64,000 nt of DNA from Kappaphycus alvarezii (lineage: Eukaryota; Rhodophyta; Florideophyceae; Gigartinales; Solieriaceae). The position numbers and the translations under genes are program-made. Shown piece by piece: positions 6,383 through 30,031 of this stretch. The first letter of the stretch is position 1. The number at the start of each line of letters is the position of its first letter. The DNA lies in assembly GCA_002205965.3 (NCBI GenBank), contig NADL03000464.1, positions 1,674,001-1,738,000 of the forward strand, in the 5' to 3' direction. The notes beneath the pieces were generated by a model. The model was not told the DNA's origin, did no database searches, and worked only from the letters and a program-made list of their open reading frames with translations.

Positions 6383-7954
6383 TTATAACAGCTGATCTCT
6401 ACTCGCGCTCGGCTCCTCTGGCACTACCCGTTCTTTCTTCCGTCCAAACAAAAACACAACTAAAACGGTCGCAAACAACACTCCTAACCCGCCTGCAACC
6501 CCTGCTACAACTAAACCCGTTTTTGGCACCGACTCACTGCTTCCTGCACCGCCTCATTCTCCGCTTCCTGTACTGCGTCTTCCACTCCGTCGTCATTCAA
6601 AGTAGCACTCCTCCACCAACCGCTACCCCAACAACACTCCCATTCGTTACCTCTCTCACCCACTCAAAGTATCTTCCAACCCTTGTATAAATTCCTGGTA
6701 GTCCTTCTCTTGCACACCCAATGCCCCCACTCACCACCCCCACCTGTACGTAACCAGACTCTGGGTCCCGAACCACAACCGGCCCTCCACTATCTCCGTA
6801 GCAAGTATCCCCCCCACAGTCTCCATCCAGGAACCCGACACACAAATGACCTTTTCCTGTCAATGACCTTGCGAATTCCGACGCACCCCATCGGACGAAC
6901 GCCTTGACGCACTCTCGAAACCCAACAACCGGCATATCGACCTGCAACAGCTGTCTCACAGGTCCTCCCACCCATCCCTCTGCAATCTGTCCATATCCAC
7001 TCGCCCTAACGAACCGCCCATCGTCTGGGCCTTCGATCCTCGTATTCAGTGATACTGCATTACCAGCAACAATTCGCTCCGATACTCGCACCACAGCAAT
7101 GTCGTGCTCCTCCAATAATCCATCTGTTGATAGTGTGTATTCAGGATGTGCGATAAACTCCGCTACCTGATACAAAGTGCCACTCTCTGTAGTATCTCCA
7201 TTAACATGAGCCCGCCCGCCCACTCGCACCTGACAATGCGCCGCCGTCAAAATCCAGTAGTCGCCAATCACCGTGCCAGAACAAGCTCCAGCTGATGATC
7301 GGATGGATGCCATATACCCTCGTATGGTGGGATCTGTGACTGATGTACCCGCCACGACATGGAATTCGGGTGTGTTAAAGGATTGCATAGGCTGAGGCTG
7401 CACACGTAGAGAACTGCCCGTTGAAGGAGGTTGAGCTTCTGAAGAAGGGGCAGACGTTCAGGACAAGGGGACGGTTGGGATTGAAAAATGTACATCACAT
7501 CGAGGACGCAGTCTTGTTTTGGGAGGAGGTGCGGGTGACAAATGTAAGTCAGAGTCAATAGGAAGTTCGATATTTTCAGTTTGGAAAGAAAAGAAGCCGT
7601 AGACAAAGTGGTAGGTGGTCGCAGAGGCATTTAGCGTAGAGTATTGAGGAAGGTAAGGAGGAGGCCCGGAAAAGTTAGAGGATGACCAGGTGTTGTAAGA
7701 GAGGCTGGAATAATTAGAAAGTCGACGGCGACATCAGAGGATGAAGGGGAGGATAGACCAAAGGAGACGAAGCAAGGGCATCTTTGGGTTTTGGGATCGG
7801 GAAGGATTTGATTGGTGCCAGAGGGTATGCAGTCGGGAATAACATCGAAAAGGATTCGGTTTTCGATTGAGAGTTTGTGGGGGGGATGAGAATGATTTTG
7901 AAGTGAGTAGCTCAGTTGAAAATAAAATGGGAGAAGAAGATAGATTACGAGCAT
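6383..7954 (-). CDS. Trypsin-like serine protease (S1), possibly secreted and membrane-anchored; frame-broken
   Basis: The protease domain is one clean frame, 7403-6597. It has VVAGT, then LTAAHC with the catalytic His, HDIAVVRV with the catalytic Asp and CYGDSGGPV with the catalytic Ser. The residue six before that Ser is Asp, which in family S1 predicts cleavage after Arg or Lys. GIYTRVGRYFEW closes the fold. In the same frame, one TGA (7458-7460) precedes a Ser/Pro-rich stretch. Further up, in a shifted frame, ATG at 7954 starts MLVIYLLLPFYFQLSYS, a good signal peptide. Downstream, in shifted frames, a Glu-rich stalk leads to TGLVVAGVAGGLGVLFATVL and VVFLFGRKK, a membrane span with a basic stop-transfer, ending at TAA 6383-6385. 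I infer one type I membrane protease broken by a few indels. A pseudogene, or a separate intact core gene, is also possible. Confidence 0.7.
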
Positions 7955-28141: not shown

Positions 28142-28865
28142 ATGGCCTCCGACCGCCGTAAATGCGTCCAACGAGACTGCACGCGCTGCGCACTACTGAT
28201 TGGCAATTATCATTCTTGCCGTGTATGCCAAGGACACCTTCATGCCTGGGGCGGCAAAGCTACAGGTGATTCGCTGCGACTGTGTGGCAAATTTGAACGG
28301 GCCAATCCCAACGCGGATGACGGAAGAAATGAGCAAGTACCGTCTGGCGCCGTTATAGACTGTCCACCATCGCACAGTGATCTCATGAATGAGATCACTG
28401 TGAGAACAAACCCCGCCAATAAACCAGCAAATCTAACCGCTATGTCAAAAACTGCCGAAAAGCGCAATTTCCTGCAGAGACAATTGGAATGGGGCGTTGG
28501 TAATGCAGTTTCAGGTGGACGGAAGCAGCGACGAAGGTTGAATATTGACGAACAACTTGAGGTGGCAAAGCTTTTGCGTGCTGGCACCAGTCAATCCACA
28601 CTGATGCTAACGTTTGGTGTCGGTAGACGAACGCTCTCTGAGATCAAGAATCGAGAGGCCTCTCTTCAACAACTCCGAGAATCAGATGGTAGAGCTGGAC
28701 AACGGAAATCATCGCATAGAAGCAGAATGGCTGGTACTGGAGGAAAGCTTCTGAAGTTCATTCAAACAGCTCAATCGGTAAATTTGGCAGCCACAAGGGA
28801 TTTATTACGCGTAAGGGAACTTTCAGTTCGTTCCAAACTTCTACAAGGTGAACTGGTGACGACTG
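28142..28865 (+). CDS. CENP-B/pogo-type DNA-binding protein fragment
   Basis: This is the front part of an open frame that runs 309 codons (28142-29071). After a Cys/His-rich start (CTRCALLIGNYHSCRVCQGH), and possibly from the internal ATG at 28441, it has a clear CENP-B N-terminal helix-turn-helix: RRRLNIDEQLEVAKLLRAGT and FGVGRRTLSEIKNRE. This is followed by the start of the second helical domain (GGKLLKFIQTAQSVNLAATR). Such tandem domains bind DNA in pogo/Tigger transposases. No DDE catalytic domain follows; at about 28,866 the DNA changes into a non-LTR retrotransposon tail, and the frame merely runs on through it. It is probably a transposase cut short by that insertion. Confidence 0.6.
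28373..28402. repeat. Near-perfect 30-bp palindrome
   Basis: CACAGTGATCTCAT (28373-28386) and its exact reverse complement (28389-28402) are separated by only GA. It lies inside the CENP-B-type frame, 40 bp before the internal ATG. The CAGT...ACTG ends recall Tc1/pogo termini. Confidence 0.8.
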
Positions 28866-29640
28866 CTACGGGGATCATCTCACGCACTGCATGTGCGGGC
28901 TCCGAACCCGACTACATGACCGTCAAGTCGTCCTCGCCCAACATCTGCAGAAATCAGCACCCCCCTCCCATCGAGCAGAGTCATGAACTTAGCCACGCAA
29001 GGCCGGATATCCATGCTATGGGTATGTTACAACTCGCTGGACAACGCTCGCTTGCACGACCCGGACGATGATGGGCACAATGCTCTGACTCCCGGTACTT
29101 GGACCTCAGGCCTGTCCTTTACTCAGAATTCTGTTTTTATGCTTTCTCTTTCATTGCTCACGTCCTTTCGACGATCAAATTAAAGGCCTACAAACTGTCA
29201 CTAATTCCAATTATCCGACCTCTGATCTAGTTGTACGTCACTGCCAAGAAGCTGTACTCCACAATAGGTAGCAATAGAGGAACGAACTGTTTTGACGTCA
29301 CGTTCGTCAATCCTCTTGGGATTTCTACTAGGAGAGTGCGTGCTTTCAATCCACTCACCTTCCTCAATGCAGCAATTTCCGTCAAGCGTAGAAGGTATGG
29401 ACCCCTGCACGCGACTTCTGCTAGGGAAGGCTTGTGCCTATCCCAATATCCACCCTTGGAGGCTTACACCCAGACCGTACGCGGTGCTAACCGATCTCGA
29501 GAGTAACGTGACCGTCCGAGCAATGGAGACCTATGGGAGGGTTAGAGCAGAGCCTACCCAAAGACACGCTGCCATAGCCGTCATGTCTAACGCGGCATGC
29601 CTGCTCGCTGGCTTTGAGCCGGCCAAGGTATGTTATTTAG
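28866..29640 (+). pseudogene. Non-LTR retrotransposon endonuclease tail (family 1 copy, interrupted)
   Basis: The region matches the family 1 endonuclease at 3.8-4.3 kb. In one frame, HCMCGLRTRLHDRQVVLAQH and LQKSAP align with the CCHC/RHD block. TRPDIHAMG-like sequence lies near 29,005. About 200 bp unrelated to family 1 follow, and then the catalytic NCFDVTFVNPLG resumes at 29,285. The conserved tail ends with GTCTAACGCGGCATGCCTGC near 29,584-29,603. The interruption between RPD and the catalytic Asp destroys the endonuclease. The same reading orientation and 3' boundary as the other copies support target-primed 5' truncation. Confidence 0.65.
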
Positions 29641-29949
29641 TGTTACATACCTATCAGTGAAAACTTACCCCACAAAACGTGGCGGTGTGGATACAAGTTG
29701 TACAGTAGCCACGCCGCTAATCACAGCCACATCATTACTGTAAGTAGTATGAAGGGTCCCGTGCAGGACTAATTGCATTACTACTGTAAATAAACCTAGG
29801 ATTGTAAGGACAATATGATCAACAATTTTCATGGTCTTTGGCATTCGCTGCTTGCTCGCGCAGGACGCTTGGCAAGACTGCAACAGCGATGAAAACTACT
29901 GCAGCTCCAAACGTAATGGAGGCTCAAAAAATTAAAAAATTTTCAGCCA

Positions 29950-30031
29950 GCTCGTGCCGGGAATTGAACCCGGATCTCCTCGGTGACAGCGAGATATACA
30001 CTGGCATTGATAACCATTATACTACACGAAC
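29950..30031 (-). tRNA. tRNA-Asp (GTC) with 11-nt insertion in the D-arm
   Basis: The cloverleaf can be drawn in full. The acceptor arms GTTCGTG (30031-30025) and CACGAGC (29956-29950) pair at all seven positions, one of them G-U. The D-stem strands are GTAT/GTAT with the loop AATGGTTA. The anticodon arm TCTCG-CTGTCAC-CGAGG gives anticodon GTC, and the T-arm is CCGGG-TTCAATT-CCCGG. Eleven extra bases, TCAATGCCAGT (30010-30000), lie between the D-loop and the 3' strand of the D-stem. Removing them leaves a standard 71-nt body plus discriminator. Red algae such as Cyanidioschyzon are known to carry tRNA introns at non-canonical sites including the D-arm, so I read this as a short ectopic intron. 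The base after the acceptor is T, not the usual G73 for Asp, so a pseudogene cannot be excluded. Confidence 0.75.

Follow-up and report, generated by a model that had tools for sequence, protein, structure and literature searches.

A putative D-arm intron in the nuclear tRNA-Asp(GTC) gene family of the red alga Kappaphycus alvarezii

The nuclear tRNA-Asp(GTC) genes of Kappaphycus alvarezii very probably carry a genuine ectopic intron in the D arm, between tRNA positions 21 and 22, and the whole family, and with it the reading of aspartate codons, would then depend on its removal. This reading was based on genome sequence and predicted structure. An insert was present at the identical point in all 14 nuclear-type genes located in the assembly, the insert varied while the exons on either side were constrained, and genes for the catalytic subunits of a tRNA splicing endonuclease were found in the same genome. 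A D-arm intron had been proposed in the earlier note for a single gene; the family as a whole supports that proposal, and we infer transcription, cutting and ligation of the tRNA-Asp precursor from it.

Results

The tRNA-Asp gene of the window

The window is a stretch of 64,000 nucleotides of contig NADL03000464.1 (positions 1,674,001 to 1,738,000; assembly GCA_002205965.3). It contains a single tRNA gene, a tRNA-Asp(GTC) on the minus strand (30031-29949), and this interval was also the only Rfam match above gathering score in the window (RF00005, 50.9 bits against a gathering score of 29), with the extra stretch in the D-loop modelled as an insertion. The features of the gene are collected in Table 1. 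The coordinates originally given for the 11-nt insert, 30010-30000, proved exact, and with the discriminator T included the gene extends to 29949. When the 11 nt were left out, the remaining 72 nt could form a cloverleaf whose D-loop (AATGGTTA) is 8 nt long and whose variable loop has 4 nt, in agreement with the architecture first described for this gene; the A and B boxes are intact. The computed D-stem probability in the spliced form of the window gene was near 0.5. The insert was placed between A21 of the D-loop and G22 of the D-stem because the D arm of the tRNA-Glu of this genome, whose D-loop is also 8 nt long (AGTGGTTA), reads ...GTGGTTA/GGAT. No canonical 37/38 intron was seen in the 14-copy alignment, where the anticodon arm was uninterrupted. 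A reading of the gene as tRNA-Ile(TAT), returned by ARAGORN, was ruled out by the intact Asp anticodon arm in the same alignment and in the Rfam model.

Table 1 Features of the tRNA-Asp(GTC) gene in the window.
Feature	Position in window	Strand	Basis
tRNA-Asp(GTC) gene, 83 nt including discriminator U73	29949..30031	-	RF00005, 50.9 bits; model R1, 110.8 bits
5' exon, 21 nt, tRNA positions 1-21, holds A box	30011..30031	-	alignment A1
Putative D-arm intron TCAATGCCAGT, 11 nt, at 21/22	30000..30010	-	variable block of alignment A1, columns 22-32; borders are the predicted cut sites
3' exon, 51 nt, D-stem 3' strand through discriminator	29949..29999	-	alignment A1
Exon side of exon-intron helix, T16 G18 G19 T20 T20a	30012..30016	-	predicted pairing
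Intron side of exon-intron helix, TGCCA in window copy	30002..30006	-	CC invariant in 14/14 copies
Anticodon GTC	29985..29987	-	alignment with RF00005 and R1
B box / T-loop GGTTCAATTCC, intact	29960..29970	-	invariant in 14/14 copies
TTTTTT run, Pol III terminator-like, begins 10 nt downstream of gene	29934..29939	-	sequence

The alignment of all 14 tRNA-Asp genes showed U73 as the discriminator base throughout. Eukaryotic tRNA-Asp normally has G73, which is an identity base. The T at this position had been held up as a reason for caution, a concern that falls away since a base fixed in every copy characterises the family and does not mark decay of the window copy; it suggests that recognition by AspRS has changed in this lineage. 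Two open reading frames of the window were also recorded. One of 309 aa at 28142-29071 (+), less than 1 kb from the tRNA gene, gave a weak match to the CENP-B N-terminal DNA-binding domain (22.9 bits, cut-off 21.2) and is possibly a transposase-type gene. The other, of 268 aa at 6597-7403 (-), gave a strong trypsin domain match (E 1.4e-35).

The tRNA-Asp family in the genome

The genome assembly (336.0 Mb in 884 contigs) was searched with three probes. BLAST with the 83-nt gene returned 14 places, each aligned across positions 1-83 with the insert included. A pattern built on the anticodon loop and T arm matched the same 14 places only, and its backward control matched none. A D-arm pattern in which gaps of 0-25 were allowed gave 23 matches (25 in the control), of which 14 were the same genes with a gap of 10 or 11 and the other nine were other sequences; both patterns were run with zero mismatches allowed. 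Among the 14 places, the window gene (L010) has an identical copy on C619 and 12 further copies. The insert is 11 nt long in eight genes and 10 nt in six, and its recurrence at the same point in 14 of 14 genes is not due to chance. It lies in complete tRNA genes and elsewhere than at 37/38.

An intact set of tRNA-Asp(GTC) genes would have counted against an intron, and none was found: neither BLAST, nor the anticodon/T-arm pattern, nor the D-arm pattern (no gap-0 match) returned an uninterrupted nuclear-type copy, within the reach of three probes that could miss a strongly divergent copy or one outside the assembly. By these same probes, the window gene is not one decayed copy among intact ones. 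The one remaining tRNA-Asp(GTC) located lies on C556 and was taken as a bacterial contaminant because its CCA end is encoded, as it is in a Thr-Tyr-Gly-Thr tRNA cluster on the same contig. CCA-encoding tRNA genes were noted on C556, which holds this bacterial-type cluster, on C562, C571 and C581, and on other contigs; such contigs likely represent bacterial contaminants or epiphytes, or organelle DNA. At four further loci that matched an Asp pattern with one extra unspecified position, which also matched the C556 gene, ARAGORN found no tRNA.

Two covariance model searches were also made. The Rfam search across the genome scored 63 of 11601 candidates, and the 14 genes were absent from that list. 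Model R1, which was built from the 14 intron-bearing copies themselves, scored those copies at 105.7-111.4 bits among 39 fetched loci, and the next locus, a tRNA-Glu, at 52.0 bits.

Copy relationships and constraint on the exons

Many of the copies share homologous flanks with 64-98% identity over 100-3000 bases. Two pairs, L009/L010 and L013/L016, are each 98% identical over 3 kb, L018/L019 is 86.8% identical across 2692 bases, and other gene-spanning pairs reach 64-87% over shorter stretches. They arose as segmental duplications, and the assembly may, in the near-identical pairs, have kept two haplotypes separate. Pairs were counted as homologous for comparison when they had at least 100 aligned flank columns and start offsets within 40 bases, which left 20 pairs among 90 spanning alignments (91 pairs); L018/L019, a homologous pair, fell outside this set through the offset filter.

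In the 20 pairs, 1426 of 1440 exon positions, 151 of 218 insert positions and 10353 of 11639 flank positions were identical (0.990, 0.693 and 0.890 pooled, the last value being driven mainly by the two near-identical pairs). Identities in the remaining 18 pairs were 0.64-0.85 for the flanks, 0.55-0.82 for the inserts and 0.97-1.00 for the exons. Exon identity was at least 95.8% across all 91 pairs, and 97-100% in the 20 flank-aligned pairs. A run of at least four T, starting 6-15 nt downstream, follows the gene in 14 of 14 copies. The near-identity of the exons in diverged surroundings indicates that selection maintains them, and the insert drifts about as fast as those surroundings, with the exception of an invariant CC. 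Such a pattern is typical of an intron that is excised and keeps a short recognition element, and it argues against both a decayed gene and a retained insert. A lone decayed copy or a SINE, the latter named earlier as grounds for abandoning the idea, was ruled out by the 14 copies, by flanks that are segmental duplications, and by the exon constraint.

Pairing between the insert and the D-loop

In the alignment of the 14 copies (A1), the only variable exon columns were column 9 in the 5' exon and columns 36 and 55 in the 3' exon. Eleven distinct inserts were counted among the 14 genes, and the variable block coincided exactly with the insert. Counted from the 3' border, C was invariant at -4 and -5, a purine was always found at -6, and -3 was A or T. 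The 10/11 length change was put near the 5' border by MAFFT, and the distance between the helix described here and the 3' border is constant. The CC of the insert is able to pair with G18 and G19 of the D-loop, and this helix is extended by U20, U20a or U16, so that at least four contiguous pairs formed in one fixed register in all 14 copies. Across the helix 83.3% of cells were paired; the weakest pair, U16/-3, was paired in 3 of 12 distinct sequences, and the D-stem was pairable in all 12. For a random insert of 10 nt with the pooled composition, the probability of such pairing is 0.093 in the fixed register and 0.67 in any register. Pairing alone is therefore cheap, and the signal lies in the fixed register together with the invariant CC; the 14 copies are related by duplication, and the 11 distinct inserts do not amount to independent trials.

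The predicted fold of the window precursor was 3.2 sd below that of shuffled sequences, with the exon-intron helix present. In ensemble folding, the fixed-register GG-CC helix had a probability of 0.69-1.00 in 11 of the 12 distinct genes, a level equalled by 0-8 of 200 shuffled inserts. The twelfth gene, L017, was adverse, with a probability of 0.06 that was reached by 36 of 200 shuffles. Shuffled inserts paired the GG somewhere with a mean probability of 0.40-0.62, and the observed value was reached by 3-79 of 200 in the 11 genes and by 164 of 200 in L017; what was unusual in the shuffle comparison was only the fixed register. Two-sided covariation was absent because the exon side never changes, and one shuffling control was uninformative for the same reason. 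A minimum free energy scan of 231 deletions did not favour excision of the 11 nt, which ranked 155. The evidence for the borders of the putative intron is conservation and tRNA architecture rather than energy.

The cuts in a bulge-helix-bulge lie 2 nt 3' of a 4-bp central helix on each strand. With the register UGGU/RCCW, both borders of the insert lie exactly 2 nt 3' of such a helix. This helix is complete in 4 of 14 copies; in the other 10 the fourth pair is U16 facing a U, and GGUU/RRCC describes the helix better. Bulges, central helix and relaxed forms are taken here as the cited part of PMC3978253 defines them. The strict hBHBh' form (4-bp central helix, two 3-nt bulges and two flanking helices) fails because there is no inner helix and because the apical loop is where the 5' border sits. 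The relaxed hBH form (an outer helix, a single 3-nt bulge and a 4-bp central helix, with the other site in a loop) fits, with very weak ensemble support in L017. Of the bulge-helix-bulge for which a test at the boundaries had been advised, the relaxed form thus stands, with both predicted cuts on the proposed borders, and the strict form does not.

A mature tRNA-Asp that keeps the insert, in an enlarged D-loop of 18-19 nt, was weighed against these results. G18 and G19 are normally needed for contact between the D-loop and the T-loop. The fold of the window precursor allows a cloverleaf with the insert present, but the invariant CC would occupy G18G19, the homologous inserts diverge in a way that the mature part of the gene does not (151/218 against 1426/1440), and the tRNA-Glu of the same genome has an ordinary D-loop. 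Retention of the insert is very unlikely, and the D-arm intron remained the preferred reading.

Splicing machinery

The endonuclease catalytic domain (PF01974) gave six matches in the genome, five of them above cut-off. An ORF of 375 aa (L131) matched solved Sen34 chains (2.4e-20) and another of 448 aa (L133) matched solved Sen2 chains (4e-16), so that the same genome holds genes for both catalytic subunits, one ORF each. From inspection of the alignments by eye, the catalytic triad of Tyr, His and Lys is presumably in place in both. A Sen54 N-terminal domain was also found (PF12928, 60.3 bits), and RtcB-like pieces on C530 together span most of the profile, with stop codons within two of six matches. 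Like the near-identical tRNA-Asp copies, the Sen domains were each seen at more than one place (two or three). The Sen2 ORF had 17 relatives, among them one protein at 82% identity, a EukProt transcript at 80% and a sequence of Agarophyton chilense at 48%, the sole relative of the 17 with an organism name. Agarophyton chilense is a red alga, which agrees with the red-algal origin that had been proposed from the tRNA gene.

Excision of the insert by an activity other than Sen, or by a modified pathway, is most unlikely. The motif is relaxed and varies among copies, and section 5 of PMC4090602 treats the splicing of non-canonical introns in the Guillardia theta nucleomorph, notably the extremely short ones, as unexplained; set against this are the Sen2- and Sen34-type genes with their catalytic domains, and a geometry that suits a substrate of the bulge-helix-bulge type.

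Other tRNA isotypes and annotation

Uninterrupted genes were seen for Lys(TTT, CTT), Arg(TCT, TCG, CCT), Thr(AGT), Asn, Trp, Val(TAC), Ile(AAT), Pro(AGG, CGG), Cys, Phe, Glu(CTC) and initiator Met (two of eight initiator-Met places fetched). Met(CAT) genes at L006, L008 and L042 lie beyond the initiator/elongator assignment. A search for other tRNA genes with D-arm insertions, advised in the earlier note, was thus rewarded by 13 more tRNA-Asp genes and by none of the other isotypes seen, and the intron is Asp-specific as far as those isotypes go. The probes, which initially missed Glu, identified no nuclear-type gene for Ala, Gly, His, Gln, Leu, Ser, Tyr, elongator Met or Val(AAC), and some of these isotypes may have interrupted or unusual genes. 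A concatenated query of 11 isotypes found Ile, Pro, Cys, Phe and initiator Met and missed Glu, which is present, so its silence on other isotypes proves little. A second concatenated tRNA query returned the Phe genes again and nothing else, and a His pattern gave 19 matches against 7 in controls, with no recognisable tRNA in the matched letters.

Two further observations concern other tRNA genes. Genes for tRNA-Thr(AGT) recur at a spacing of about 5.7 kb on C388 and C802 (L068, L069), with at least two on the former and at least four on the latter, as in a tandem repeat unit. L087 (C41:356791-356862) is a tRNA-like gene with anticodon TCA and is probably a nuclear insertion of a mitochondrial tRNA-Trp(UCA).

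As run here, ARAGORN called 8 of the 14 tRNA-Asp genes tRNA-Ile(TAT) and left the other 6 unreported. In tRNAscan-SE 2.0, non-canonical introns are analysed for candidates of the archaeal search model, according to the cited part of PMC8450103. In genome annotation, tRNA-Asp may look absent in such genomes.

Discussion

Proposed mechanism

That the 14 genes are pseudogenes or a tRNA-derived repeat, with the working tRNA-Asp genes divergent from the probes or missing from the assembly, is barely credible: the homologous flanks are common to the copies, and in section 5 of PMC4090602 eukaryotic D- and T-arm insertions lie mostly in one of many copies, supposed pseudogenes, but here the insert is in every copy, the exons are near-identical amid diverged surroundings, the A and B boxes are intact with a T-run after each gene, and the three probes returned no uninterrupted nuclear copy.

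For a D-arm intron, the following course of events is proposed. In the precursor, the D-stem would stay formed while G18G19(UU) of the D-loop pairs with RRCC of the intron in a central helix of 4-5 bp. The 3' border would then lie about 3 nt past the GGUU/RRCC helix, beside the D-stem, and the 5' border in the apical loop. After cleavage of both sites by the Sen2/Sen34 endonuclease, the exons would be sealed by a ligase, and G18G19, once freed, could dock with the T-loop.

A bolder version is offered tentatively, as a possibility with the odds against it. All genes for an essential isoacceptor would need D-arm splicing in a multicellular red alga, and the intron would act as a folding lock: the CC would sequester the GG of the D-loop, the tRNA elbow could form only after splicing, and Sen cleavage would license tRNA-Asp. 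If so, what the Sen enzyme reads would be a local helix rather than its distance from the body of the tRNA.

Comparison with known systems

The closest parallel is Cyanidioschyzon merolae, also a red alga, with introns off 37/38, bulge-helix-bulge-like sites and homologues of Sen2, Sen34 and Sen54 (cited parts of PMC3978253 and PMC9602550). Its ectopic introns lie in the D, anticodon and T arms, and a D-arm site at 12/13 is described for tRNA-Ile(UAU) in the cited part of PMC9602550; per the same text that intron is one of three in its gene, whereas the tRNA-Asp intron is a lone one at 21/22. The cited part of PMC3978253 describes the C. merolae motifs as varied and as occurring at scattered points of the cloverleaf, and discusses recognition that does not depend on the mature domain; by analogy, such recognition would be needed here too. 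Compared with C. merolae as these texts present it, K. alvarezii is distinct in that 14 of 14 copies of one isoacceptor carry the insert while the other isotypes seen are uninterrupted.

The nucleomorph of the cryptophyte Guillardia theta shares red-algal descent and short inserts in the D arm. Its tRNA inserts of 3-24 nt, those in the D and T arms included, were confirmed by RT-PCR to be removed (section 5 of PMC4090602). The nucleomorph is a relict nucleus in which many introns have no defined motif (cited part of PMC3978253); here the genome has 336 Mb and the gene family is redundant. Canonical 37/38 tRNA introns are likewise short, and the Sen-type genes and intact Pol III A and B boxes of K. 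alvarezii fit with them, but the position differs. Eukaryotic D- and T-arm insertions in single copies, as the cited section of PMC4090602 reports them, are the opposite of what was found here, where all located nuclear copies carry the insert. Among the literature matches listed, none described introns of this kind in Kappaphycus or any other florideophyte.

The 11 distinct inserts offer a natural series of minimal substrates for asking which features guide a eukaryotic splicing endonuclease at sites other than the anticodon. For an essential, redundant gene family to rely entirely on D-arm splicing would be unexpected in a large genome, and the idea is directly testable. The kind of intron is known, that of ectopic red-algal tRNA introns, and what is new is that the intron is fixed across a redundant family of a large genome. 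In the cited portions of the reviews, known eukaryotic D-arm introns come from a small extreme-habitat red alga and from relict nuclei, and could be attributed to genome reduction. Fixation of such introns across a gene family in a genome of 336 Mb suggests that tolerating off-site tRNA introns is a property of the red lineage.
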